NCBI GenBank assembly: GCA_021413735.1
Contig: JAIOPV010000016.1
Coordinates: forward strand, 1 to 64,000
Direction: 5' to 3'
Length of the DNA: 64,000 nt
Source of the DNA: Planctomycetota bacterium
GTDB lineage: Bacteria; Planctomycetota; Planctomycetia; Gemmatales; Gemmataceae
Shown here: in pieces, positions 6,753-43,361 of the stretch
Position numbering within the stretch: position 1 is the stretch's first letter
How the letters are laid out: each line of letters opens with the position of its first letter
Notes under the pieces: model-generated
Database searches by the model: none
What the model was told of the DNA's origin: nothing
What the model saw: only the letters and a program-made list of their open reading frames with translations
Translations under genes and position numbers: made by a program

Positions 6753-6916
6753 ATCGACTCGGATAGCCCTCAATTGCTCCTTCCGTTGCGGAACGACTCG
6801 GACGATCATGTGAGGCGTAGCTAGCGTTCAGGTGGCAGCGGCAGACAACCGATCTGGGAACGCGTTGTTCACCGTTCCGACCGAACAACTCGGATGCAAT
6901 TTCACGAGACACAAGA

Positions 6917-8017
6917 ATGGCGTCGATCTTTAGTCATATTGTCCAGAAGCGATTGTCGCAAGAAAAGGAGAACGTCGCCACGGAAGCCTTGACCTTCATC
7001 TTGCGTTCCAAAGAGCAAGCGCGTGCTGGTTTGATGAAACTTCTTCGCGGAATCGCGCCCGAGCTACCCACGCTTCAGTTTCGCACTCAACTCGCCGAAG
7101 GCATTGCGCGTCCGGATATGTGGGGTTTTGACGCCACCGCAACCCCGAGGGTGTTCATTGAGAACAAGTTTTGGGCTGGTCTGACAGAGAATCAACCGGT
7201 GCAGTATCTCAAACTTCTATCGGCGCACGCTGCTCCCACGCTGTTGCTGGTCGTCGTACCGGCAGGTCGCCTGGAAACCGTGTGGAGAGAACTCCGGCGA
7301 CGGCTCACCGAAGCCAATTTTCCACTCTCTACCTGTTCTCCCTCACAGGGAGTGTATCGCACTGGTTCCGTGAACTTCGGTTCAGAAGCGGGGACCGCAC
7401 CCTGGCTCGCGATCACCTCCTGGTCGAACGTGCTGTCTGCTGTCGAAGCTGGATTGGCTGATGAACCACAGGCCAGGAATGACCTCTTTCAACTGCTTGA
7501 TCTCTGTGATGCTGCCGACAATGATGGGGCGGCACCATTTGCCTCCACGCAACTGACTGACCAGAGTACCCCTTCGTTCATCCTCCGACTAAGTTCAGTG
7601 ATCCAACAAGCAGTGAATTTGGGTGTGTCAGAGGGTGTCCTCAGTATTGATGGTCTGCGACCAACTTCAAGTTGGGACCGAATCGGAAGGTACATCCGAT
7701 TTCCGAATGGCGGCAAGGTCGAACCGTGGATCGGGACCGACCTGCGTAAATGGAGAGATCGCGGAACAACACCGTTGTGGCTCGTCTTTTCCACAACCAA
7801 GTACGGGCGGGGGGCAGAAGTCCGGGCGGCGTTGGAATCTTGGGTTGAGCAGAACCAAATTGTGATCTGCGATGACGACGATGGCAGCTTTGCAGTCGGA
7901 ATCGAAGTGGTTGCCGGTGAAGAGCCTGACCACGTCGTCAGAGCCATCGTGAACCGCCTTCGGGAAATCGTTGTGGAATTGTCTCGCCTTCCGGTAAGGG
8001 CGACGGGTGAACTCTGA
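6917..8017 (+). CDS. PD-(D/E)XK nuclease-like protein
   Basis: A 366-residue protein. Residues 1-95 look like a restriction-endonuclease-fold core: a helical start (KENVATEALTFILRS), then IARPDMWGFDA and VFIENKFWAGLTENQPVQYLKLL, which gives D-(X)n-E-N-K in place of the D...ExK active site, followed by a conserved QP-containing helix. The rest (WLAITSWSNVLSAVE, FILRLSSVIQQAV, RIGRYIRFPNGG) is of unknown fold. Stand-alone PD-(D/E)XK proteins of this type act in defence or repair; no partner gene is adjacent. The catalytic assignment is by eye. Confidence 0.65.
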   Translation: MASIFSHIVQKRLSQEKENVATEALTFILRSKEQARAGLMKLLRGIAPELPTLQFRTQLAEGIARPDMWGFDATATPRVFIENKFWAGLTENQPVQYLKLLSAHAAPTLLLVVVPAGRLETVWRELRRRLTEANFPLSTCSPSQGVYRTGSVNFGSEAGTAPWLAITSWSNVLSAVEAGLADEPQARNDLFQLLDLCDAADNDGAAPFASTQLTDQSTPSFILRLSSVIQQAVNLGVSEGVLSIDGLRPTSSWDRIGRYIRFPNGGKVEPWIGTDLRKWRDRGTTPLWLVFSTTKYGRGAEVRAALESWVEQNQIVICDDDDGSFAVGIEVVAGEEPDHVVRAIVNRLREIVVELSRLPVRATGEL

Positions 8018-10356: not shown

Positions 10357-13300
10357 TCACTTCGCTTTCCCGCCACCGCCTCCGCCAGTGGAGCCAGCCT
10401 TGACGCTGACCGCCACGCTCGCCACAAGAGGCGGGCTTGCAGCATCCACAACGGAGATGGTCTGGTTGCCGGTCGTGTTCAGCGTGATCGTGAAACTCTG
10501 AACGCCCGAGTCGAGACCGGTGAAGGTGTAGTCCGCAGGCAGGCCGGCAATCCCCGCCGTGTTGCCGAAATGGACCGTCCCGAAGTAGTTCTTCACTTTG
10601 TTTCCGTAGGCGTCGAGGACCGTCACCTTCAGTGAGAAGGGCGATCCGGCGGTGATATTCGACGGCACAGCCAGCACGAACTTGGATGCCGCCGCGTTAG
10701 TGACTTCAAAGTTGGTCAGCGTCCCTAGCGTGGCAGCATTCGAAGCATCCACCACACTGAACGACCACACAGTGGCGTTGGGAGTCGTGGTCTTGAGTGC
10801 GACCGTGAAGGTGTGAACGCCCGCGTCGGCTGCCGTGAAGTTGTAATCGGCTGGGAGCGCCGCCAAGATGTCGGTGCTGCTGAACTTCGCCTTACCCTTG
10901 TAGCCGACAACGGTGTTGCCGAACGCGTCGGTGGCACGCACGGTCAACGCGATGGAGTCGCCCGCCGTCACGAGGATGTGGCCCTTACTGTCCGCACCGT
11001 TCGGGACCGAAAGTCGGAAGCCCGCGAAGGCGGCCGGGCTAACGGCGATGCCGACTTCGGTTCCTGTGAGCGTGCCGGTCGCGTCGCGTGCAGTGATCGA
11101 CTGCGTACCAGCCGTTCGCAGGGTCGCCGTGAACGTGTGAACGCCCGCGTCGGCTGCGGTGAAGGTGTAACTGGCCGGCAAGCCCGCCTGGGCGTCGGAA
11201 CTGGAGAAGTAGACCGTACCGGTGTAGCCGGTGGCGATCTGGCCGATGGTGTCGCGCACAGTGACCGTGACCGCGTTCGCAACCCCCGCCGTGGTCGCCG
11301 GGAATCCAGTGATCGCGAAGAGGCTCGCGACGGGTGGTGTAGCATCGCTCGACATCGTGCCAGTGATCGCTGGCGTGGCGATAGCGGTGGCAGTGATCGT
11401 CTGCGAACCGACGGTCATGAGTGTCACGGGCACGTTTACCGACCCATTCACCAACGTGATGTCCGCTGGCAACATCGCGGCCAAGTCGGAACTCGTGACA
11501 TGGACCGTGCCGGTGTAGCTTGTTGTGAGATTGCCGTAGTCATCGCGAGCGATGACCGTGATCGGACGAGCGACCCCAATCGCGCCTCCGCCACCCGCAA
11601 GTGTGAAGTTCGTCGTTGCTGCCGCCGCGACATCGACGAAGGAACCGCCGCTAATTGTCCCGCCGACCTCATTGGCTGCAAGCCAATCCGCACCGGCCGA
11701 TTTCATCGTCACCGTGAAGGTGTGGACACCTGCATCGTCGGGGGTGAATGTGTAATCCGCAGGCAATCCCGCCAGCAGGTCCGAACTGGAGAAATGCACG
11801 GAACTCGTGTAGCCCGTTCCGACATTGCCGAGCGAGTCGAGGGCGGTAACGGTCACGGTAAGCGTGTCGCCCGCCGTCGCCGCGGCCGGTACACCGAGTG
11901 CGAACCGCGTCACGGCCGGCGTGACCGTGACGGTGCTGGTTGCCGCGGTCATGAACGGGGCTGCCACCGTGACCGATTGGTCGCCAGCCGTGACCAGTCG
12001 AACCGAGCCGCCGAAGGCGTGCGTCCCTGCGTCCGCTGCTGTGAATGTGTAAGCCACCGCCGAGGGGGACGCCGGGTCGTTGCTCGTGACGTACACCGTC
12101 CCGCGGAACCCGGGGACCACATTTCCGCTCGCGTCCACGGCACTCACGGTCATCGGTAGGGCTGTGCCCGAGGTGGTGGAAACTGGCACGTTGACGCTGA
12201 ACCCGACGGCTCCCGCAAGGTTTGACACGTCGTCGGCCGCGTTCAGGACGACCGACACGCCGGTCGTGCTGGGGTAAGCGAAATCGACAGACCCGTCGCC
12301 GTTGAAGTCGCCCTGCGTGCCCATTTCAAAGCGACCAGGCGGCGTGGCGTAGTTCACGACCGGGTAGAACGTGCCGTCGCCCTTGCCGAGTTGAACGCTG
12401 TACTTGGACGACCCCCGCACCGCGAAGTCGTCGTTCCCGTCGTGGTTGAAGTCCGCGACTTCGATCTCGTAGCCGGTCTCGGGAATGCTGTAAGTGTGTG
12501 GTGCGGCGTAAGTGCCGTCGCCGTTATTGAGGATGACGCTCATTGATGTGGCCGCATACGAATTGGCGACGGCGAAATCCTCGTAGCCGTCGTTGTTGAA
12601 GTCGCCCGCCCCAACGTAGACCGGAGCCGAGTAAGCGTAGACGTTCGACGCCGGATCGAACGACCCGTCGCCGTGCCCCTTCAGAATCGTGATCGTGCCG
12701 ACGCTCACCGTGTTCGACGTTGCCAGGTCGAGTGTGCCGTCGCGGTTGAAGTCGCCGACGACTGTGTTCGTCGAGTTGCCCGGAATCACCATGTCGCGGC
12801 TGGCCTGGAAGGTGCCGTCGCCCTTGCCGAGCAGCACGCTCGCGGTGCCGGAATTCATGGTGGCCACGTCGAGAGAACCGTCGCCGTTGAAGTCGCCTGT
12901 GTTGATCGAGTGCGAACCGACCCCCACAACGTAGGCGACGGGCACTGCGAACGAACCGTCACCGTTCCCTAGCAGAATGCTCACGCTCCCTTGAGTGCCC
13001 ACGACCGCGAGATCGGCTTTCCCGTCCGCGTTGAAGTCGCCCGCCTTGGCATCCACCGCGTAGCTGCCTGCTGCGTAATCGACTTTCGGCTGAAACGTGC
13101 CGTCGCCGTTGCCAAGAAGAATCCCAACCGTGCCTGACGCCATCTGACTCACAACGGCCATGTCCGGACGGCCGTCGTTGTTGAAGTCGCCCAACGCCAC
13201 CCCGCCAGGGTTGGCACCTGCCGCGAATGACGCGGGCGTCAGGAAGGTGGGAACGTCCCGGCATTCGAGCGACTCGAACCCGAGCCTTGCACGAGTTGCC

Positions 13301-19719: not shown

Positions 19720-20676
19720 ATGATGTCCGAACTTGAAGCGTTACTCGCCGGAATCGTCTCGGAACCGCTGGAGGAAACACGTTGGCTCGTTCTGGCGGAC
19801 TGGCTCGAAGAGAACGACGACCCGCGACGCGGCGAACTGTTGCGACTGCACCGCAAACTGCTGGCGACTTGCTGCGAGCCGGAAGCCCATCCAGAACGGC
19901 AGGCATGGCAGGCACGCGTCGTGGAGTTGATCGGGGCGGGAGTCAAACCGTGCGTGCCGCAGCGTGTCGTGCAGTTGCCGGGTGGCGTGCCGATGGCGTT
20001 CTCGTTCATTCCACCGGGTTCGTTTCTGATGGGTGGAACTGTCAACGACAACGAGCGGCCCGTTCACAAAGTGACGCTGACGAAAGGTTTTTTCATTGGC
20101 GTTCACGCTGTGACGCAAGCACAGTGGGATGCCGTCATGGGCATCAACACAAGCTCCTTCAAGGGGCCGAACCGACCGGTGGAAGAAATCTCGTGGAATG
20201 ATTGCCAGGAGTTTTGCAAGAAGATGACCACCGACTTGAAGAGACGTGTGACCGTGCGGTTGCCTACGGAAGCCGAGTGGGAGAGGGCATGTCGGTCTGG
20301 CACCACGACGGAGTATCACTTCAGCGATGTCCTGAATACCGATCTGGCGAACTACAACGGCGACTCTTCGTGGAACGACTTGCCGAAAGGGAAGAATAGG
20401 CAAGAAACGACGGATGTTGGCTCGTTCCCGTCGAACGCTTGGGGTCTGTGCGACGTTCACGGGAACGTCTGGGAGTGGTGTTCGGACGGGTATGGCGAGT
20501 ATTCTCCGGGCAATCAAAGTGATCCGCAAGGACAATCAGACGGGCAATCTCGCGTCTTGCGTGGCGGTGCCTGGGACAACGATCCGGTGCTTTGCCGCGC
20601 TGCGTTCCGCGTCACAGTCGAGCCTGCGTACCGTAGCGGTCGAACCGGATTTCGGATTTGCTTCTGCCTGGAATGA
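19720..20676 (+). CDS. TIGR02996-type protein with FGE/SUMF1 domain
   Basis: A 318-residue protein. Residues 1-55 carry the planctomycete TIGR02996-type N-terminal module (LEALLAGIVSEPLEETRWLV; LADWLEENDDPRRGELLRL). Residues 85-316 are a formylglycine-generating-enzyme-like fold: FSFIPPGSFLMGG, VTQAQWDAVMG, RPVEEISWNDCQEFCK, RLPTEAEWERACRSG, GLCDVHGNVWEWCSD, RVLRGGAWDN and GFRI. The sulfatase-activating Cys residues of true FGE are not obviously present, so it may be a binding or C-type-lectin-like variant rather than an oxidase. Confidence 0.82.
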   Translation: MMSELEALLAGIVSEPLEETRWLVLADWLEENDDPRRGELLRLHRKLLATCCEPEAHPERQAWQARVVELIGAGVKPCVPQRVVQLPGGVPMAFSFIPPGSFLMGGTVNDNERPVHKVTLTKGFFIGVHAVTQAQWDAVMGINTSSFKGPNRPVEEISWNDCQEFCKKMTTDLKRRVTVRLPTEAEWERACRSGTTTEYHFSDVLNTDLANYNGDSSWNDLPKGKNRQETTDVGSFPSNAWGLCDVHGNVWEWCSDGYGEYSPGNQSDPQGQSDGQSRVLRGGAWDNDPVLCRAAFRVTVEPAYRSGRTGFRICFCLE

Positions 20677-25387: not shown

Positions 25388-26055
25388 CGCATAACCTCCG
25401 TTAGGAATACTCATGTCAGCACATGGGCGGGCGAGTTATTGCGGGCACTGAACCCAGCACTCTCCGCCATTTCCCCCACACTGATATTATACGATATTTT
25501 GGGGTATGAATCACGCGATCAAATACTGATTGTGATCGCCGTATTTATCAGAGGTGTGTATTTAGAACATATTTGGTGTCGCAGGAATTCCCTGAGCGTG
25601 TGAGCATAGTTATTGCAACGAAATGCTGGAACTGATTGGAGAACGCACCTGGAGGGCGGAGAGTGAGTGGGGAAAGTCACAGCCGTGTGGTGTGAGGTTT
25701 GGCGAACTGATGTGACCTTCGACACGCGAGTGCATGTAGGCCGCTTGCATCGTCGGGCTACAGCACCTCATCTTGCCTCCGCATCCAATCGCGTTCTGCA
25801 CGACAGCGTTTCCGCCCCGCCCAACAGCGGGTAGGACTCGCGCACGGGTGCGGGTTCAGTGTCATCATCGAGAACCTCTCCCATCTCGCCGGTGTCTTCG
25901 CGTGTGACCTCCAGCACAGTCGAGCAACCGGCTGCGTCCTTGCACTCGACGGCGGATCGGTCATGCTGAGAGGACCAAACGGAGGGGAATAGTTGCCGGG
26001 AGTGGTGTCACGATACCGAAGCCTGCGATGGCGAAGTTCCACAAACACCGCATGG
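25388..26055. other. Intergenic region, possible decayed coding
   Basis: No complete gene. On the minus strand at about 25960-25755 a frame without a start codon reads like part of a protein (AAGCSTVLEVTREDTGEMGE), suggesting a decayed gene end. The rest is AT-richer (25480-25620) and featureless. Confidence 0.35.
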
Positions 26056-26673
26056 ATGTGGGCAACGGCGACACCGTTCTCAACTGGCCGCAAAAAGCGC
26101 CTTGCAGTTGTGGCATCATGCCGAGCGATTCGGAGCAACCTGGAAGGTGTGTGTCGCTACTTCTCCGCCTTGGGACCAGACTACGCAATCGAAGTGGATG
26201 AACTATTGTCGCTCGCCGAGTCTCAAGCAGATGAAACTGCCCAAGATGTCAGCCAAGTCGAGGTTCAACGCACGTTGTGGAATGCTCTGGAGTTCTGCGC
26301 TTGTGGTGCGCAAGAGGTCGCGATGTTTCGTGGCTTTCGAGACGCACTGACGTTACTCGATTCCACTACCAACCCTCCGATCTTGTTTGCGACGAGTGTC
26401 ACAAACCGTTTCAAACTATGCGGTCCGTTCCGCGAAGTGTTTGGCAATCCCTTTTGGCCGGTGACATTCGATCCGGCTTGGCTCACGTCAACGGTCGTCT
26501 CGCTCGCCCAAAGCATGTATGAGTCCCGCGACTTTTCAGCGATGCCGATTCTGGCGGACGCACTCCAAGACGCGGGCTGCGACAACGACGACATCCTCGA
26601 CCACTGCCGCGACGAGAAGCAGGTTCACGTTCGCGGATGTTGGGTGGTTGATGCCATTCTCGGCAAGGAATAG
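26056..26673 (+). CDS. ADALQDAG-family protein with divergent N-terminus
   Basis: A 205-residue member of the planctomycete paralogous family. The family C-terminal half is intact: FREVFGNPFWPVTFDPAWLT, then VVSLAQSMYESRDFSAMPIL, then ADALQDAGCDNDDILDHC and VHVRGCWVVDAILGKE. The usual start (MTExEWLxxxDPTPMLEFL) is not present; only TGRKKRLAVVASCRAI matches the following RKLRLFA segment, so the 5' end was replaced or shifted. ATG 26056 is the nearest start in frame; the protein may be non-functional. Confidence 0.5.
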   Translation: MWATATPFSTGRKKRLAVVASCRAIRSNLEGVCRYFSALGPDYAIEVDELLSLAESQADETAQDVSQVEVQRTLWNALEFCACGAQEVAMFRGFRDALTLLDSTTNPPILFATSVTNRFKLCGPFREVFGNPFWPVTFDPAWLTSTVVSLAQSMYESRDFSAMPILADALQDAGCDNDDILDHCRDEKQVHVRGCWVVDAILGKE

Positions 26674-28450: not shown

Positions 28451-28790
28451 TCCGGGAGGAGAAGTCGGTCAGACGCAAGGGGTGGAGGTGTAGGATGAAC
28501 CGAGAAGCGAAAGCCCACGGGAAAGCGGTGGGCTATGCTGACGGGTTCACGAGCTGACGAAGGACAGAGACATCTCAAGACGGAATCTTCTGAACACACC
28601 GGAAACGGGAGGGTGGCGAGGGGAAGGTCTTGAACCTTCACGTTCGAGGGGTGGGGTTGTCGAGCTACTGCGGTTGCAAAGCCGCAGGAGTGCCTTGACA
28701 GAGGTCGTTCGCCGGGGAGCTGTATGAGTGCGAAAGTCTCATGTACAGTTCTGAGGACGGGCACGGAGGGCGACCTCCGTGTCTAGTCCG
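28396..28790 (+). ncRNA. Group II intron remnant without reverse transcriptase
   Basis: 28717-28751 (GAGCTGTATGAGTGCGAAAG, then TCTCATGTACAGTTC) has the 34-35-nt domain V hairpin form, with the AGC start and GAAA loop. 28752-28790 can fold as domain VI (GGCACGGAGG, CCTCCGTGTC). The G-rich 28450-28716 would be earlier intron domains (GCGAAAGCCCACGG and GAAACGGGAGGGTGGCG). There is no reverse-transcriptase frame, so an internal deletion is likely. 28396-28450 is repeated at 27900. Confidence 0.7.
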
Positions 28791-28859
28791 CCCTGCTTGG
28801 CAAATCGTGATCGCGGGTATGATCGGGTATCGCCGGCCGAAAGCGGGAGAGGGCAACCG

Positions 28860-29510
28860 ATGACTGAGCGTGAGTGGCTGGCGGCGACCGATCCGACGCC
28901 GATGCTGGAGTTCCTGCGAGGCAAGGCGAGCGACCGGAAGTTGCGACTATTTGGGTGTGCCTGTTGCTTCCGCATCTGGGAATACTTGAAGGACGAATGC
29001 CGTGCGGCGGTGTTGGTTGCCGAGCAGTACGGAGACGGAGCGGCCGACGACACCGAGCGATGGGCTGCCCGTGCTGCGGCTGAAATTGCGACGGACAACT
29101 CCGAATGTGAGGCGACGATCTCTTTGAATAACACGAGCGTGCCATTCGACACGGCTGATTATGTTTCCGTTACAACGGCTGGTCAGGGGTATGTTTTCGG
29201 TCAACCGGGAAGAAATGAGAACGACGAGAAGCAGTTTCTAACCGAACGAATCGTGCATACGGGCTTTCTACGGGACATCTTCGGCAACCCCTTCCACCCC
29301 GTTGCCCTCGACCCCTCCTGGCTCACGCCCACCGTCGTTCGACTTGCCGAACACATCTACCACAAGCGTGCTTTCGACCAGATGCCGATCTTGGCCGATG
29401 CCCTTCAGGATGCCGGGTGCGACAACGCCGACCTGCTGAACCACTGCCGACAACCCGGTGAACACGTTCGGGGATGCTGGGTGGTGGACATGCTGACCGG
29501 ACGCAAGTAA
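28860..29510 (+). CDS. ADALQDAG-family protein, complete
   Basis: A 216-residue complete member. Module 1 (residues 1-45): MTEREWLAATDPTPMLEFLR, GKASDRKLRLFGCACC. Module 2 (about 50-145): variable, rich in Ala/Glu/Asp. Module 3 (about 150-214): LRDIFGNPFHPVALDPSWLT, TVVRLAEHIYHKRAFDQMPI, LADALQDAGCDNADLLNHCR, HVRGCWVVDMLTGRK. The conserved ends and variable middle are the family's hallmark. The sequence gives no enzyme motif; the two CC residues and HCR...GC could bind metal. Function unknown. Confidence 0.72.
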   Translation: MTEREWLAATDPTPMLEFLRGKASDRKLRLFGCACCFRIWEYLKDECRAAVLVAEQYGDGAADDTERWAARAAAEIATDNSECEATISLNNTSVPFDTADYVSVTTAGQGYVFGQPGRNENDEKQFLTERIVHTGFLRDIFGNPFHPVALDPSWLTPTVVRLAEHIYHKRAFDQMPILADALQDAGCDNADLLNHCRQPGEHVRGCWVVDMLTGRK

Positions 29511-29601
29511 GCGGCGGTGGTCACGTCTGAATGCCTTGCATCAGTACAGAAGGATGGTGATCGGCTAAACTCGTGTTGGGCCGACCGAAGTGGAGTACAC
29601 C

Positions 29602-30276
29602 GTGAACGAACAGGAATGGTTGGCCTGTACCAACCCGTCACCGATGCTGGAGCATCTCCGGGCGAAGGCCAGCGACCGGAAACTGCGGGTATTTGCTGTC
29701 GTTTGCTGTCAGCGTATCCGACACCTGATGAGTGATGACAATAGCGAGCGGTACGAGGTAGCTGAACTCGTTGCGGATGGTACAGGATCGACAAGTGAGT
29801 TGCTGTCCGCTCGGAGCGTAGGCCAACGACTCACGAGCTACACAATCAACAACTTCCCGCTTGCCTGGACCGCTGAAAACTATGCTGATGCTGCTGCTGG
29901 CGATGCGGCTCATACCGACCCGTATTTCGCTGCCTGTTCCGTCTGCGAGTTGGCTCAGCTTGCCCAAAACCCTGTCGAAAACGAATACGGGAACGCGGAC
30001 GTGGGAGAAGAACATCACGCTCAGGCGGCACTCCTCCGTGACATCTTTGGCAACCCGTTTCGCCCTGTGTCCCTTGATCCTTCGTGGCTAACGACCACCG
30101 TCCTTGCCCTTGCTCAGCAGATGTACGAGTCGAGAGACTTCTCAACGATGCCGATTCTTGCCGATGCGTTACAGGACGCCGAATGCGACAACGCCGAGAT
30201 TCTCGATCATTGTCGAAGTGGCGGGTCACACGTTCGTGGTTGCTGGTTGATCGACCTGATGCTCGGGAAGTCGTAG
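29602..30276 (+). CDS. ADALQDAG-family protein, complete
   Basis: A 224-residue member starting at GTG 29602 (VNEQEWLACTNPSPMLEHLR) after GTGGAGTACACC. The conserved first module and the C-terminal LLRDIFGNPFRPVSLDPSWL, LADALQDAECDNAEILDHCR and HVRGCWLIDLMLGKS are all present. The middle region is unlike the other copies (SARSVGQRLTSYTINNF; AHTDPYFAACSVCELAQL). The sequence before it (29561-29580) matches the promoter-like part of the intergenic module described at 38386. Confidence 0.72.
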   Translation: MNEQEWLACTNPSPMLEHLRAKASDRKLRVFAVVCCQRIRHLMSDDNSERYEVAELVADGTGSTSELLSARSVGQRLTSYTINNFPLAWTAENYADAAAGDAAHTDPYFAACSVCELAQLAQNPVENEYGNADVGEEHHAQAALLRDIFGNPFRPVSLDPSWLTTTVLALAQQMYESRDFSTMPILADALQDAECDNAEILDHCRSGGSHVRGCWLIDLMLGKS

Positions 30277-32439: not shown

Positions 32440-32617
32440 TCTTTGCTCGTCGGCTTAAAGGATGTACCAGGACCGTGCTTTCGACTAAATGCCACTCCTT
32501 GCCGACGCCCTCAAAGACGCCGATTGCGACAACGCCGAGGTTCTCGACCACTGTCGAGGGCCAGGGCCGCATGTTCGAGGATGTTTCGTTGTGGACTTGC
32601 TGCTCGGCAAGGAGTGA
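32440..32617 (+). pseudogene. Orphan C-terminal module, ADALQDAG family
   Basis: Only the end of a family gene remains: MYQDRAFD, then a stop (TAA, where relatives have CAA/CAG for Gln), then MPLLADALKDADCDNAEVLD and HVRGCFVVDLLLGKE, stopping at TGA 32617. The next gene starts 4 bases later. The stop falls at a codon that is Gln in most copies. Confidence 0.75.
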
Positions 32618-32621
32618 ACCA

Positions 32622-33302
32622 ATGTCCGAAGCCGAATGGCTTGCGGCGACCGACCCGAAGCCGATGGTCGAATTCCTGGTCGAGACGGCAAGCAACCGGA
32701 AGTTGCTGCTTTTCTGTCTGGCCTGTTGTCGTAGAGTGGAACGACTTATCCTGAACTGGCCGTCTGCCTCATTGGTGGATGTGCTGGAACAACTTGCGGA
32801 CGGCCGGGCAAATCCGGCGTCTGTGCCCGAGCGTGTCCACTCCAAGTGGGAACCCGAACCGTACACGAATCAACTCGGGCCAACCCTTTTCGACTGTGCC
32901 GATGCAGTGTTGGAAGCGGCATTCCGCCCGTGTACAGACCGGTTAGAAGAAACGAGCGACGGGAGCATGCGAAAGGCAGGTGGGCCAACGGCCGTTGTGC
33001 ATTACTTCGAGGTTTTGGGATTCGAGCAATCTGCCACTGTCTCCCCACTGGTTCACGACCTCCACGACATCTTCGGCAACCCGTTCCAACCTATCGTTCT
33101 CGATCCCAACTGGCTCACGTCCACCGTCGTGGCACTCGCCAATGGCATCTATGACGAGAATGCGTTCGACCAAATGCCGATCTTGGCCGACGCCCTTCAG
33201 GATGCCGGGTGCGACAATGAGGATGTTCTTGGTCACTGCCGAAGTGAAGGACCGCACGTCAGGGGCTGTTGGGTGATTGACCAGTTACTTCGGAAGCACT
33301 GA
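32622..33302 (+). CDS. ADALQDAG-family protein, complete
   Basis: A 226-residue member: MSEAEWLAATDPKPMVEFLV, SNRKLLLFCLACCRRVERLI, a unique middle (ADGRANPASVPERVHSKWEP), then LHDIFGNPFQPIVLDPNWLT, VVALANGIYDENAFDQMPIL, ADALQDAGCDNEDVLGHCRS and HVRGCWVIDQLLRKH. Its Shine-Dalgarno (AAGGAG) is formed by the last codons of the preceding orphan module. Role unknown. Confidence 0.72.
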   Translation: MSEAEWLAATDPKPMVEFLVETASNRKLLLFCLACCRRVERLILNWPSASLVDVLEQLADGRANPASVPERVHSKWEPEPYTNQLGPTLFDCADAVLEAAFRPCTDRLEETSDGSMRKAGGPTAVVHYFEVLGFEQSATVSPLVHDLHDIFGNPFQPIVLDPNWLTSTVVALANGIYDENAFDQMPILADALQDAGCDNEDVLGHCRSEGPHVRGCWVIDQLLRKH

Positions 33303-33343
33303 TCTGAACCCGATTCGTCGGCCACGGAACAGGGAGCAGAAAC

Positions 33344-34627
33344 ATGGAGTCACCGCAGCAACTCCGTCTCGGGGAAATCGAGCAGCGAGTCTGTGACCTG
33401 GCTGTGGAACACATGGCTATCCCCAGGCGACAAATCTCTCCGTCGAGCCGGTTGATCGAGGACCTTCACTGCGACAGCCTCGACCTCATGGAGTTCGTGA
33501 TGGCCCTGGAACAAGCGTTCGGCGTCACTTTCCCTGACAATTCCTCGTCGGAGCCGATTTGCAAATCCATCTTCACTCGCCAGCCATTCCGCCTCTCCGA
33601 TCTCGCAGAAATCGTTTATGTGCAGCAGGGCACGGGAACTCCACAACGGAACCGCCGGAAGGGCAAAACCCACAAAACCATCATCCCGATGGTGCCGTTC
33701 AGCCAACTTGATGGCCGGTGGCGACCAAGCGGCGAACAACCATTCGAGCCGATGAACGCCAATGGACCGGTTCGGCAATTCCGGCGGCGTTCGGACGGGA
33801 TGAGGTGCGTGTTGATCCCAGAAGCAGCCGTGGAGATTGGCTCCGACGTGCCCGATGGCCTCCCGGATGAACGACCGCCGCACATCGTCGAGGTGGATTC
33901 GTTTGTAATTGACGCCGAGCCGGTATCCACGACGGCGTACTGCCGATTCCTCAACTCCATCGCAACCGTGAGTTCGGAAACACTCTCGGATTGGTTCGCC
34001 CTCGACCCGAAAGATGACCGCAACCAGCATGCGGTCATCACGAAGTCTGGAAATGAGTGGCGACCAACCCTTGGGGCCGAACGGTGGCCGATGGTTCTCG
34101 TCTCGTGGTTCGGGGCAAATGCGTACTCGTTGTGGGCCAACGGGCGAGACTGGAACGACTACCGTGATGAAGCGGGGGTGAACAGTTTCCTGCCAACGGA
34201 GGCTCAGTGGGAATACGCTGCCCGAGGAACTGACCGTCGGCAGTTTCCTTGGGGAAATGATCCACCATCACCAGACCGAATGCGATTCGGCCGTCATGAT
34301 CCAGGCGACACTTACACGGCCAATTCACTTCCGCTGGCTGGAGTCAACGAAGCCCTTGGGTTATCGCCATTCGGGCTTCATCACATGGCCGGGAACGTGT
34401 GGCAATGGTGTCGGGATTGGTATTCTGAGGACTTCTACCAACAGCCCGCTGCTCATCGTCCGAACCCCCTGAACCGTTTGGTGAGTGGCGTTCGGAGCGA
34501 GCGGGGTGGGAGTTGGGTCGGACCAGCCGAGTTGTGTCGCAGTTCGTACCGCCGAGGACGCTCGCCGTGTGCCCGTGGGCGTTGCCTCGGGTTCCGCTGC
34601 GTCAGCCCACCTGAGAATGCTCGCTGA
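33344..34627 (+). CDS. Acyl-carrier-like domain fused to FGE-like domain
   Basis: A 427-residue fusion. Residues ~5-95 form a phosphopantetheine-carrier fold: EIEQRVCDLAVEHMAIPRRQ, SRLIEDLHCDSLDLMEFVMA (the DSLDLME serine is the attachment site), EQAFGVTFPDN. After a linker (RRKGKTHKTIIPMVPFSQLD), residues ~145-425 are an FGE/SUMF1-like domain: MRCVLIPEAAVEIGSD, NSFLPTEAQWEYAARGTDRR, HHMAGNVWQWCRDWYS, RSERGGSWVG, CLGFRCV. Fusing a carrier domain to an FGE-like fold is unusual; covalent substrate presentation is a hypothesis. Confidence 0.8.
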   Translation: MESPQQLRLGEIEQRVCDLAVEHMAIPRRQISPSSRLIEDLHCDSLDLMEFVMALEQAFGVTFPDNSSSEPICKSIFTRQPFRLSDLAEIVYVQQGTGTPQRNRRKGKTHKTIIPMVPFSQLDGRWRPSGEQPFEPMNANGPVRQFRRRSDGMRCVLIPEAAVEIGSDVPDGLPDERPPHIVEVDSFVIDAEPVSTTAYCRFLNSIATVSSETLSDWFALDPKDDRNQHAVITKSGNEWRPTLGAERWPMVLVSWFGANAYSLWANGRDWNDYRDEAGVNSFLPTEAQWEYAARGTDRRQFPWGNDPPSPDRMRFGRHDPGDTYTANSLPLAGVNEALGLSPFGLHHMAGNVWQWCRDWYSEDFYQQPAAHRPNPLNRLVSGVRSERGGSWVGPAELCRSSYRRGRSPCARGRCLGFRCVSPPENAR

Positions 34628-36379: not shown

Positions 36380-36970
36380 ATGACCGAACTGGACTGGCTG
36401 AAAGGTAGGAACCCTGTCCTGTTGTTTCGACACCTCCAGGGCCGCATTACTGAGCGTAAGTTGCGATTATTTGCTGCTGCCGCCTTGAACACGATGAAAG
36501 AGCGAGATCAGGATTCTATCGCCCGCTATGAAGTCGCAGAACGCTTCGCAGACGGGTTGTTGACGGTGAGCGAGCTTCGTAAGGCGTGGCCGGCCATGCG
36601 GACCGACAACCCTGCCACAGCACCCGAACTCGCATACGATTGGGCCGAAGTGGTCGTGATGGCAAAAGACCGAGGGTACTACGGCGGCTCCTTCCCCATC
36701 CTTTCGCAACCACTGGTCAGCCATCTCCTCCGAGAGGTTGTAGGTAACCCCTTTCAACCTGTGACGCTCTTACCGTCATGGCGTACTGACACTGCGTTGG
36801 CTCTGGGCCGTCAGAGGTACGAGTCTCGTGACTTCTCTGCGATGCCGATCCTCGCCGATGCCCTTCAAGATGCCGGCTGCGACAACACCGATATTCTCGA
36901 TCATTGCCGCAGTGATCGACCGCACGTTCGAGGATGCTGGGTAATCGATTTACTCCTCGGGAAGGAGTAA
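36380..36970 (+). CDS. ADALQDAG-family protein
   Basis: A 196-residue member after CAGAGGCGGAC: MTELDWLKGRNPVLLFRHLQ, TERKLRLFAAAALNTMKERD, a variable middle (WPAMRTDNPATAPELAYDWA), then LREVVGNPFQPVTLLPSWRT, LGRQRYESRDFSAMPILADA, LQDAGCDNTDILDHCRSD and HVRGCWVIDLLLGKE. Three units (36380, 36974, 37633) follow head-to-tail with gaps of 2-3 bases, an operon-like trio. A promoter-like GGCGTGGTAAACTGACC lies at 36343. Confidence 0.72.
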   Translation: MTELDWLKGRNPVLLFRHLQGRITERKLRLFAAAALNTMKERDQDSIARYEVAERFADGLLTVSELRKAWPAMRTDNPATAPELAYDWAEVVVMAKDRGYYGGSFPILSQPLVSHLLREVVGNPFQPVTLLPSWRTDTALALGRQRYESRDFSAMPILADALQDAGCDNTDILDHCRSDRPHVRGCWVIDLLLGKE

Positions 36971-36973
36971 GCC

Positions 36974-37630
36974 GTGACCGAACAAGAGTGGCTTACGGCG
37001 ACCGACCCGACGCCGATGCTTCGTTTCATAAAAGGGAAGACAAGCAACCGGAAATTGCGGTTATTTGCAGTGGCTTGCTGCCGCCGGATCGAGCGGTTCA
37101 TCTACCCGCCCTGGCATGGGGTGTTGGAAGCCGCCGAGCAAGTCGCCGATGGGGTAATCCGACACGATGAACTCCTGGCCATTCGTGTCGGTGCAGACCC
37201 GGTTCATGATGGGACGATGGCAGTCGAGGCCGCCGCCATGACCGACCATTTCCCGATTAACAATGCTGATGATGCGGCGGGGTACGCTGCCCAAGCTGTT
37301 GCCAGAGAGGTAGTGCCGGGATATCCAGAGAACCTCGCTGCCTGGCAGGCGGCACGAGGATGTGAGGAAGGGGCTCAGTCCACTGTACTCCGTGACATCC
37401 TCGGCAACCCGTTCCACCCCGTCATCGTCGTTCCCATGTGGCTTACCTCAACCGTCGTGGTGCTTGCCCGCCAGATGTACGAATCTCGTGACTTCTCTGC
37501 GATGCCGATTCTCGCTGACGCACTTCAGGACGCCGGTTGCGACAACGACGACGTACTGAACCACTGTCGAAATCCGGGATCGCATGTTCGGGGATGTTGG
37601 GTAATCGATTTACTCCTCGGGAAGGAATAG
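36974..37630 (+). CDS. ADALQDAG-family protein, second of tandem trio
   Basis: A 218-residue member starting at GTG 36974 (VTEQEWLTATDPTPMLRFIK), four bases after the upstream stop begins. The AAGGAG that serves as ribosome site is part of the upstream GKE* codons. It has NRKLRLFAVACCRRIERFIY, a variable middle (EAAAMTDHFPINNADDAAGY), VLRDILGNPFHPVIVVPMWL and ADALQDAGCDNDDVLNHCRN, HVRGCWVIDLLLGKE. Confidence 0.72.
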   Translation: MTEQEWLTATDPTPMLRFIKGKTSNRKLRLFAVACCRRIERFIYPPWHGVLEAAEQVADGVIRHDELLAIRVGADPVHDGTMAVEAAAMTDHFPINNADDAAGYAAQAVAREVVPGYPENLAAWQAARGCEEGAQSTVLRDILGNPFHPVIVVPMWLTSTVVVLARQMYESRDFSAMPILADALQDAGCDNDDVLNHCRNPGSHVRGCWVIDLLLGKE

Positions 37631-37632
37631 CC

Positions 37633-38376
37633 ATGACTGAACCAGAATGGCTTGCAGCGATCAACCCGACGCCGATGCTTGAGTTTCTGAAGGGGACAAC
37701 AAGCGAGAGGAAGTTGCGTCTCTTTGCCTGTGCGTGCTGCCGCCGCATTTGGTCTGCACTGAAGAGAGGTGGTAGTCGAAAGGCGGTTGAGGTCTGTGAG
37801 GTGTACGCTGACAACCTGACCACAAGCGAGAAGTTGCAATCGGCTCACGAAAATGCCCATGATGCGTTTGCCCGTGTTCAGTGGGCGGCAGAGAGCGATG
37901 AGGAAACAACTCCGGCGAGAGCAGCTATCTACTTGGGCGAAGGAGCAGAGTTTCATCCTGGACTAGTTGCGGACGAAGCTGCGGCGACATTCGGAGTGAA
38001 GGCCAGAGAACGGGATTTCAAACGTCGCAAAAGGGCTGCCGACGCTAAGGGGCAGGAAGCACCGATCTGGGACCAGTACGACGCTATCTATCGTGCGGCA
38101 CAGGCAGAAGAAGCACGAGTACAATCTAACCTGTTACGCTGCGTCATCGGCAATCCGTTTCGCCCCATCCTCGTTAATCCTTCGTGGCTCACGTCCACCG
38201 TTGTCTCACTCGCCCGTGGCATCTACGACGAGAAGGCCTTCGACCGGATGCCCATACTAGCCGACGCCCTCCAGGACGCCGGTTGCGACAACACCGCCAT
38301 CCTCGATCACTGTCGGGCACCGGGACCGCATGTCCGGGGTTGTTGCGTCCTCGACCTGATCCTCGGCAATTCGTAA
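37633..38376 (+). CDS. ADALQDAG-family protein, third of tandem trio
   Basis: A 247-residue, longer member: MTEPEWLAAINPTPMLEFLK, SERKLRLFACACCRRIWSAL, an inserted middle of ~95 residues with basic helix (ATFGVKARERDFKRRKRAAD, EAPIWDQYDAIYRAAQAEEA), then LLRCVIGNPFRPILVNPSWL, RGIYDEKAFDRMPILADALQ, DAGCDNTAILDHCRAPGPHV, RGCCVLDLILGNS. The final GNS differs from the usual GKE, so no downstream copy is immediately coupled. Confidence 0.72.
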   Translation: MTEPEWLAAINPTPMLEFLKGTTSERKLRLFACACCRRIWSALKRGGSRKAVEVCEVYADNLTTSEKLQSAHENAHDAFARVQWAAESDEETTPARAAIYLGEGAEFHPGLVADEAAATFGVKARERDFKRRKRAADAKGQEAPIWDQYDAIYRAAQAEEARVQSNLLRCVIGNPFRPILVNPSWLTSTVVSLARGIYDEKAFDRMPILADALQDAGCDNTAILDHCRAPGPHVRGCCVLDLILGNS

Positions 38377-39284: not shown

Positions 39285-39976
39285 GTGACCGAACAAGAGT
39301 GGTTGATGTGTACCGACCCAACCCTGATGCTGGAGTTTCTTCGAGGTCGTCTAGGTGACCGTCAGAGTCGGCTCCTGATGTTCCAATTCGCCCACGAACT
39401 ACTGGCCTGGCATCACGATGCCCCCACTCGGGAGGTCGTCACGATTCTGGATCGTTATGCCGAGGGGGGCTTTGCGGGTGGGGAATTACACGACGCACTC
39501 CGGCCGTTTGCAGCATCGTGTCAGGTGCTGGCCGACGAAGGGTACCCCTGGCCCGTTCAGGATGCTCATCCTCTTCATGCCCACGTCGAGTCTGCCGCCC
39601 TGTGGCTCATCCGGCGGTTCCTCCCGCCCGAGATGACCGTCTCCAGCCTCTCCGACCTGAGTGGGCTGCGGCTGTCCCCAAAAGACGCTGACACGCTCGA
39701 CTACTTCCGGTGGCTTGTCTGCACAAGACCCTTCGGGACGTAGTGGGGATCGCCACGTTCCGCCACGTCCCCTTCGAGGCAGCGTGGCGAACGTCCACGG
39801 TCGCCGCCACTGCCGAAGGCATCTACGCTGACCGTGCCTTTGACCGGCTGCCGATCATGGCAGACGCCCTTCAGGATGCGGGATGCGACAACGCCGACAT
39901 CCTGAACCACAGTCGGAGCGGGGGGCTGCACGTCCGTGGCTGCTGGGTGATCGACCTGATCCTCGGGAAGTCTTAA
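39285..39976 (+). pseudogene. ADALQDAG-family gene with a frameshift
   Basis: The 5' part (39285-39743) encodes MTEQEWLMCTDPTLMLEFLR and an atypical middle (LHDALRPFAASCQVLADEGY). The 3' part (39710-39976) encodes LHKTLRDVVGIATFRHVPFE, AWRTSTVAATAEGIYADRAF, DRLPIMADALQDAGCDNADI and HVRGCWVIDLILGKS. The two parts need a change of frame within 39710-39743, so either it is a broken gene or two overlapping proteins; the former is more likely. Confidence 0.7.
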
Positions 39977-41712: not shown

Positions 41713-43361
41713 CAGATCCCGACTTCAGTTTCGCGATTCTCACTGACGCAGCAGCGACACCAGACGAAAGAACGTCATCAGGTACGGGTTCCAGCCCAGC
41801 ACACGCAACACCAGTCGGCGACCACTCTGAATCACCTCGCACGGGATTGTCACAAACTCACTCACAAATGCCTTGAACTCCAGTCGCAACACACGACGTT
41901 TCTCCTCGCGATGTTGTTCCTGCCAGCGGCCCGGCGACACCGGCAGCATCAACGCCCACCACGCCTTCAGATTCCACGCCAACGCCGTCATCACCATCCA
42001 CGCCCCGTTGCTCTCCAAGGTGTTCACCGGAGCTTGCAACGCCCCAACACCAGCATGCAACTGGGCCAACAAGTTCTCCTGGTTGCAACGATCGTTCGCC
42101 TCAAACACGATCTCCTCGGCCGTCCGGTTCCGATCATTGGTGATGTAGAAGAAGAAGCGTTCCTTGGGGAACAACACCTGCTCGCCCTTCTCCTTTGAGA
42201 TGTTCTTGCGGATCACCACCATGCGATACGTCTTCGCACACGCGGTTGGCCGGTAGTCGAACTCGGCCACTTCCTCCGACTTCAACCGCAGCACGTCGAA
42301 CTTTCGCTCGCGAACGATCCGGTCCTTCACCTTCTCTGGCCGCTCGCGAGGTTGCGTCTTCACTTCGTATCGGGCCGGGCGTTGCAATGGCTTCCAGGCA
42401 GTTGCTGGCAAGGCTTCCGCCACTTCGGTGAGGTTCGATCTGGCGTCGTAGCCGAAGATGAACTGCACGCCCGGCAAGCCATCCCAGAGGTCGAGGTGCT
42501 GCGTCTGGGAGAAGTCGGTGTCGCCCCGCAGAACGATGCTGCGAAACCCCGCTTGCAGGCACAGCCAGATCGCCTGATTGACCTGTCCAGAGGCTCCTTC
42601 GTGTGAAGGGCGATTGCCCGGTCGATTCAGCAGACGCAACACTTCGCCGGTCTCGGCCAGACTGACGATCAGAGGATGGTAGCCCCAGGTGCCGTCGTAA
42701 GCGATGTCCATGCCCGCCTTGCACTCGCCGTTGGTTGCGACGAGTGTGCCGTCCATGTCGATGGTAGCCCGGTTGAAAAACGAGCGAGGTTGCTTGGCCC
42801 AGACTTTGCGTCGTGTCTCGTCAATGGCGTCCTGGAGAGAGTCGATGTGCGTTTGGCTGAATCGTCGGCAGAAATCACCAGCAGTGGTGGGATCGGGGAT
42901 GCGGCGTGCCCCGAGAGCATCGAGGAAGGCTTCATCGTTGCGACGCAGTTCGATGTCTTGAAGGCAGGTGCCGTGGCAAAGTGCGTTGTAAGCGATGTTG
43001 AGAACGTGGTCGGACTCGTGATAAGGCAAATGGATCTTGAGGAGGTGAAGTCGCTGGTCGATGGCCTGTGGCAACCCGAGTTGATGTGCGAGCATGTGGA
43101 TGACCCCGATGCCGCCGTGAGCGATGGCTCGGTGCCGGTGCGAGACATCGTAGTCAATGGGTCGACCGGAGAGGACGGGTCGAAACGTGGCCGTGTCGTG
43201 TGTGTTGTCGAGTCGTCGCTGGATTCGGGACTTGCGTGTGCGGAACCAGGAGCGGAAAATCGTTTTCACTCGAAATCCTTGGTTGGGTCTGGTGGTGTGG
43301 GATGCGTCTACATCCACAAACCCCAGAAACCGCTGAGGATTTCGAGCTTTTTTGGGATCGC
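41713..43361 (-). mobile_element. IS1380-family insertion sequence
   Basis: About 1.65 kb, the normal length of this family. Imperfect ends were noted: ATCCCGACTTCAGTTTCG at 41716 and TTTTTTGGGATCG near 43359, read in from both sides as GATCCC...TCG...ATTCTCA. Target-site duplication was not resolved. It carries one complete transposase on the minus strand. Confidence 0.75.
41740..43269 (-). CDS. IS1380-family DDE transposase
   Basis: A 509-residue transposase, GTG start at 43269 after CAAGGATTTCGA. Diagnostic parts: TIDMDGTLVATNGECKAGMD (first catalytic Asp), GTWGYHPLIVSLAETGEVL, RLLNRPGNRPSHEGASGQ, SIVLRGDTDFSQTQHLDLW (second Asp) and ERFFFYITNDRNRTAEEI, EANDRCNQENLLAQLHAG (third acidic Glu). 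Complete and probably active, since no frameshift is seen. Confidence 0.9.
   Translation of the reverse strand: MKTIFRSWFRTRKSRIQRRLDNTHDTATFRPVLSGRPIDYDVSHRHRAIAHGGIGVIHMLAHQLGLPQAIDQRLHLLKIHLPYHESDHVLNIAYNALCHGTCLQDIELRRNDEAFLDALGARRIPDPTTAGDFCRRFSQTHIDSLQDAIDETRRKVWAKQPRSFFNRATIDMDGTLVATNGECKAGMDIAYDGTWGYHPLIVSLAETGEVLRLLNRPGNRPSHEGASGQVNQAIWLCLQAGFRSIVLRGDTDFSQTQHLDLWDGLPGVQFIFGYDARSNLTEVAEALPATAWKPLQRPARYEVKTQPRERPEKVKDRIVRERKFDVLRLKSEEVAEFDYRPTACAKTYRMVVIRKNISKEKGEQVLFPKERFFFYITNDRNRTAEEIVFEANDRCNQENLLAQLHAGVGALQAPVNTLESNGAWMVMTALAWNLKAWWALMLPVSPGRWQEQHREEKRRVLRLEFKAFVSEFVTIPCEVIQSGRRLVLRVLGWNPYLMTFFRLVSLLRQ

Follow-up and report, generated by a model that had tools for sequence, protein, structure and literature searches.

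A rare bacterial fusion of a carrier domain with an FGE/SUMF1-like domain that lacks the copper cysteine pair

What does an FGE/SUMF1-like domain do when it shares one polypeptide with a carrier domain? The question is raised by a gene in a stretch of 64,000 nucleotides from a Planctomycetota bacterium (the window), whose closest matches are Planctomycetota records. SUMF1-like domains are common, but for most of those that lack the copper cysteines no chemistry has been assigned. A natural fusion to a carrier points to the likely location of the substrate, on the arm, and thereby makes the reaction directly testable. The preliminary description of this DNA had recognised a phosphopantetheine-carrier fold with the serine motif DSLDLME preceding an FGE/SUMF1-like domain, and both parts of that reading were borne out by Pfam scores, by the four helices of the predicted model and by the conservation of the serine (Table 1). 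A literature search that covered open-access papers, with most subscription journals outside its scope, found no description of a carrier-FGE fusion.

Architecture and conservation of the fusion protein

Pfam analysis placed a PP-binding domain (PF00550) at residues 14–65, with 29.1 bits against a cut-off of 20.8 (E 1.2e-6), and an FGE-sulfatase domain (PF03781) at residues 155–420, with 140.2 bits against a cut-off of 23.3. By these scores, together with the conserved serine on one side and the fold match (Z 27.9) on the other, the protein belongs both to the PF00550 carriers and to the SUMF1-like superfamily. An AlphaFold model built with 95 sequences consists of two domains (mean pLDDT 93.6, pTM 0.83), in which the carrier forms four helices (residues 9–24, 45–59, 71–77, and 84–93) and the C-terminal part adopts the FGE fold; an earlier run on 17 sequences (pLDDT 51) was set aside.

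Table 1. Features of the fusion gene in the window
Feature	Position	Strand	Basis
Carrier/FGE-like fusion gene, 427 aa	33344..34627	+	ATG 33344, stop 34627; same ends as in the preliminary description
GGGAG, possible ribosome-binding stretch	33332..33336	+	Purine-rich, 7 bases 5' of the ATG; read off the sequence
Carrier domain, residues 9–98, including the family-specific third/fourth helix region	33368..33637	+	Pfam PP-binding; four model helices; alignment conservation
S45 codon, expected phosphopantetheine attachment serine	33476..33478	+	Invariant 24/24; DL..[DE]SL motif in every member
Variable linker, residues 99–118	33638..33697	+	Lowest conservation of the measured segments (mean majority 0.34); reduced pLDDT at ~101–110
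FGE/SUMF1-like domain, residues 155–420	33806..34603	+	Pfam FGE-sulfatase E 1.2e-40; T. curvata FGE match by VIA-align over 247 residues, Z 27.9
H318 codon	34295..34297	+	Family-invariant, 24/24; 5/71 other FGE-like rows
E386 codon	34499..34501	+	Family-invariant; 0/71 non-family FGE-like rows
S390 to R403 loop; true FGE has its copper Cys pair here	34511..34552	+	12 residues between its ends, without the pair
G393 codon, first FGE active-site Cys position (human Cys336)	34520..34522	+	G in 21 members and S in three; Cys in 23/71 FGE-like rows outside the family
R413-C414 codons	34580..34585	+	Family-invariant; 0/71 non-family rows

Relatives were gathered from relative searches, genome-contig searches, and 392 sampled Planctomycetota genomes. 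The search for the same architecture that the preliminary description had proposed returned 23 further distinct full-length proteins, 46–63% identical to the window protein. The resulting family of 24 comprises 20 members from Planctomycetota, three from Alphaproteobacteria, and one from Verrucomicrobiota. Because the architecture recurs in these proteins, it is neither a chance arrangement nor an assembly join, and the fusion is a real, conserved, and rare bacterial protein. The 24 members form one clade, joined by a long branch (2.71) to an outgroup of six FGE-like proteins in a tree with several unresolved inner forks and flagged long-branch effects. When the carrier domain plus linker was used as a query against the 392 Planctomycetota genomes, ten strong matches (at least 80 bits) were obtained, all in open frames of 424–498 aa, and the matches below them were mostly ordinary short acyl carrier proteins (ACPs). 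In the sampled genomes the specialised carrier domain was therefore never seen alone, always fused, and the carrier-FGE fusion probably arose once. The family's carrier-domain profile detected no independent carrier-FGE fusion among the fetched FGE-like loci. At one locus (G000:C232), a carrier match lies in an 888-aa frame (6824–6964) and, about 4 kb away in the same genome, an FGE-like match lies in a 1242-aa frame (10720–11460); the two are not fused.

The motif DSLDLME occupies residues 44–50 of the window protein, with S45 at the attachment position. The serine is present in all the members and its neighbour D44 is Asp in 23 of them and Glu in one. The six invariant positions of the carrier domain include four around the attachment site (D40, L41, S45, and L46), and the mean conservation of residues 40–47 is 0.83, compared with 0.62 for the remaining carrier domain. 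Since residues 40–47 are conserved and hold four of the six invariant positions while the rest of the domain varies, selection holds the modification site in particular, and the pattern at S45 is as would be expected for a modified serine. Over its whole length the carrier domain shows lower conservation than the FGE-like part, with a mean majority of 0.64 versus 0.70 and 7% versus 28% invariant columns. In the PDB, the best carrier matches are to acyl carrier proteins such as 7e42 (residues 10–72, E 1.4e-15), and two ACPS-family transferase genes are present in the window's genome.

The active-site loop and residues specific to the family

Structural comparison with Foldseek and VIA-align revealed that the C-terminal part is closest to FGE, followed by PvdO, CalU17, and others. 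Copper FGE needs two Cu(I)-binding active-site cysteines (PMC12123546, PMC4505483), which in the human enzyme are Cys336 and Cys341 (PMC4505483). Whether this pair is kept was a point raised in the preliminary description, and it is not. Position 393, that of the first cysteine, is Gly or Ser in every member, and the motif GGS..C....C, found in 23 of the 71 other FGE-like rows of the same alignment, occurs in 0 of 24 family rows. The loop between S390 and R403 has 12 residues in all 24 members and in 36 of 48 pair-less relatives, compared with 15 in all 23 pair-bearing relatives. As this internal control of loop length separates the pair-bearing proteins from the family, the loss of the pair is real and not an alignment slip. 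With Gly or Ser at the first cysteine throughout and a loop of pair-less length, copper FGE chemistry is excluded for the fusion protein, as judged from the alignment. C398 (Cys in 20 members, Ser in three, Ala in one) falls at the second FGE cysteine in a simple profile alignment; the loop differs in length from that of the pair-bearing relatives, so C398 is probably not the equivalent of that cysteine.

The domain carries invariant residues of its own: E192, W217, R226, H318, E386, P394, R404, R406, R413, and C414. E192, W217, E386, R413, and C414 are found in none of the 71 non-family rows, R226 in two, and H318 in five, while P394, R404, and R406 are less exclusive to the family. C414 directly precedes the conserved GFR. 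Invariance here combined with absence elsewhere is the pattern to be expected of a specialised site.

Distribution and genomic surroundings

The distribution of the fusion is patchy. It was found in 10 of the 392 sampled Planctomycetota genomes and in one of 296 genomes within the family of one alphaproteobacterium that has it. Of the 37 genomes listed for the window's own family, two have it, namely the window's genome and G026. The three alphaproteobacterial proteins are 86–91% identical although their records are labelled as different families. This suggests a recent transfer, a reading to be taken with caution because the records are metagenome or uncultured ones. In one planctomycete genus, six genomes with the fusion share a site adjoining a beta-helix (NosD-like) gene. 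Three genomes of the same genus without the fusion have the same flanks, with 200, 283, and 250 bases between them, compared with 1582 and 1527 in two fusion-bearing genomes. The difference in length is made up by the fusion gene, a single gene of ~1.3 kb that is cleanly present or absent. Because the genomes without it keep the same flanks, the fusion gene comes or goes alone in this genus, suggesting that no dedicated neighbour is required.

Clustering of the open reading frames around family members revealed no neighbours shared between distant genomes with the fusion, common neighbours being confined to one genus. Twenty neighbouring proteins from 11 loci were scanned with Pfam and were mutually unrelated, except for two DUF1559 proteins in one locus. 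An operon or biosynthetic-cluster partner was rejected on these results, as was a tailoring role in an NRPS or PKS cluster, the 20 neighbours including no such synthase or transferase. A multi-gene form of the modified-protein system offered by the preliminary description as another possibility found no support: neither a co-inherited protein substrate nor a partner gene was found. Since no neighbour is common to distant genomes, the function of the fusion protein probably uses general cell functions. Mobile and defence contexts were also considered and rejected. For phages, 79 viral loci match the FGE-like part only, with no match starting before residue 131 (best viral row, 33% identity over residues 224–425); for plasmids, there was no match at E 1e-30; and for defence systems, there was no PADLOC match.

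The fusion gene lies inside a cluster of a hugely expanded protein family that has 146 matching stretches in the window's genome, often in tandem clusters, and the consensus MTExEWL...ASDRKLRLFA.ACCRRI...MPILADALQDAGCDNxDILxHCRxxGxHVRGCWVID. Copies in the window include 25993–26673, 28779–29510, 29590–30276, 32475–33302, 36380–36970, 36974–37630, 37537–38376, 39285–39976, and others, and the copies scanned had no significant Pfam or NCBIfam match. The window also contains a second FGE-like gene with an N-terminal TIGR02996 domain (19720–20676) and, on the minus strand, a long open reading frame that looks transposase-like by eye and adjoins fragments of the expanded family (41740–43317).

Proposed function and relation to known systems

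We tentatively favour, at somewhat less than even weight, a self-contained enzyme acting in cis on a carrier-bound acyl thioester, in a reaction other than formylglycine formation. S45 of the FAS-like carrier would probably be converted to the holo form by a general phosphopantetheinyl transferase, and a general acyl-loading enzyme would probably then charge the holo-carrier. The FGE-like domain would most likely act in cis on the tethered substrate or on the phosphopantetheine thioester, and its reaction would differ from the formation of formylglycine. Action of the FGE-like part on a substrate bound to the carrier had been proposed in the preliminary description; it stands as the leading reading because the carrier fold is true, the serine is invariant, and the fusion is conserved. 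An FGE-type active site is not supported. Both domains pass their Pfam cut-offs and are predicted to fold together, in line with an enzyme; against it, many members of the SUMF1-like group serve as scaffolds or binders and catalyse nothing, and no conserved neighbour hints at a substrate. An enzyme of this kind would combine carrier and tailoring functions in one self-contained unit, of a size convenient for study and reuse. More tentatively still, the family may represent a class of enzymes not described before, each encoded by one gene and tethered to its own carrier. In such enzymes a new SUMF1-like active site without the copper pair would modify an acyl or other thioester in cis, and the gene would be inherited or spread as a one-gene cassette. 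Both domain families were already known; what is new is a conserved architecture in which the known active site is lost and a new one has possibly taken shape.

The main alternative, which we regard as possible though doubtful, is that the FGE-like domain is a non-catalytic, C-type-lectin-like binding or scaffold domain, with the arm delivering or sensing an acyl group, for instance as a reporter of acyl-ACP supply, and the FGE-like part docking it to a protein or ligand. The 12-residue loop is that of the pair-less class, and the structural matches include PorK/GldK and DGR variable proteins, among them close matches known or named as structural or binding (PorK and T. denticola variable protein 1). 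The window's genome (9.8 Mb) has 33 PF03781 matches, many of them within large proteins. However, 76 of the 275 FGE-domain positions (28%) are invariant down to 46% overall identity and across three phyla, whereas a pure binder usually drifts more, and a conserved partner gene is likewise missing. The window's genome has reverse-transcriptase matches; a DGR variable protein was nevertheless rejected, since the C-terminal stretch RSERGGSW..RRGR..ARGRCLGFRC is not hypervariable and ranks with the regions that change least between family members.

It is unlikely that the phosphopantetheine thiol of the holo-carrier is itself the substrate, bound or oxidised as FGE binds a peptidyl cysteine, through C414 or C398 and other residues in place of the copper pair. 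FGE naturally acts on a thiol, which binds to the metal of its active site (PMC12123546), and C414 sets all family members apart from all 71 other rows, but the protein lacks a bis-thiolate pair and so cannot use the known O2/Cu chemistry, and C398 varies. Equally hard to favour, and if anything a shade less probable, is a carrier domain that is a relic or plain structural module and is never phosphopantetheinylated. Among the NCBIfam carrier models, those for acyl carrier proteins come closest, and the domain scores below the curated cut-offs of all of them; the best score, 54 bits against 71, also falls short of equivalog or subfamily membership in the NCBIfam FAS AcpP models. No loading enzyme was seen among the scanned neighbours of the gene. 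The retention of S45 and of an acidic residue at position 44, while most of the domain varies, argues against a relic. A true formylglycine-generating enzyme helped by its carrier domain is highly improbable and is refuted on sequence grounds, for although the C-terminal domain matches FGE best, both in Pfam and in structure, FGE's first cysteine and paired motif are gone from every member, the loop is three residues short, and a sulfatase is only one of the 20 scanned neighbours.

Comparison with FGE/SUMF1 itself (T. curvata 5nyy/6s07, human 1y1e) revealed a common fold over ~247 residues with 31% identity, and common core motifs such as LPTEAQWEYAARG, GNVWQW, RGGSW, and GFR. The fusion differs from FGE in the missing copper pair, the shorter active-site loop, the invariant residues of its own, and the N-terminal carrier domain. 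The SUMF1-like fold is also shared with PvdO (5hha, Z 26.5), CalU17 (6vqp, Z 25.1), and ToxD (7spq, Z 22.2). According to their PDB entry titles, CalU17 and ToxD use this fold in small-molecule biosynthesis, as does PvdO, going by its NCBIfam name; all three are SUMF1-like proteins of natural-product pathways. These proteins are pathway members, whereas the fusion gene has no conserved neighbours, and to our knowledge none of them is fused to a carrier. The sulfoxide and selenoneine synthases EgtB, OvoA, and SenA have a C-terminal FGE-like domain in common with the fusion, and their families carry the HX3HXE iron motif. This motif is present in 0 of 24 fusion members, which rules out iron chemistry of the sulfoxide-synthase type; Pfam finds no DinB-like N-terminal part in the fusion, and its scores lie below the equivalog levels of EgtB (74 versus 360 bits) and SenA (63.5 versus 420 bits). 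On the carrier side, the domain shares its fold and attachment motif with AcpP, the ACP of type II FAS, and an 83-aa ACP-like open reading frame in the window's own genome is 39% identical to it. The carrier of the fusion differs from AcpP in an extra conserved segment (...FTRxPFRLxDLAELVY...) before the last helix and in being always fused.
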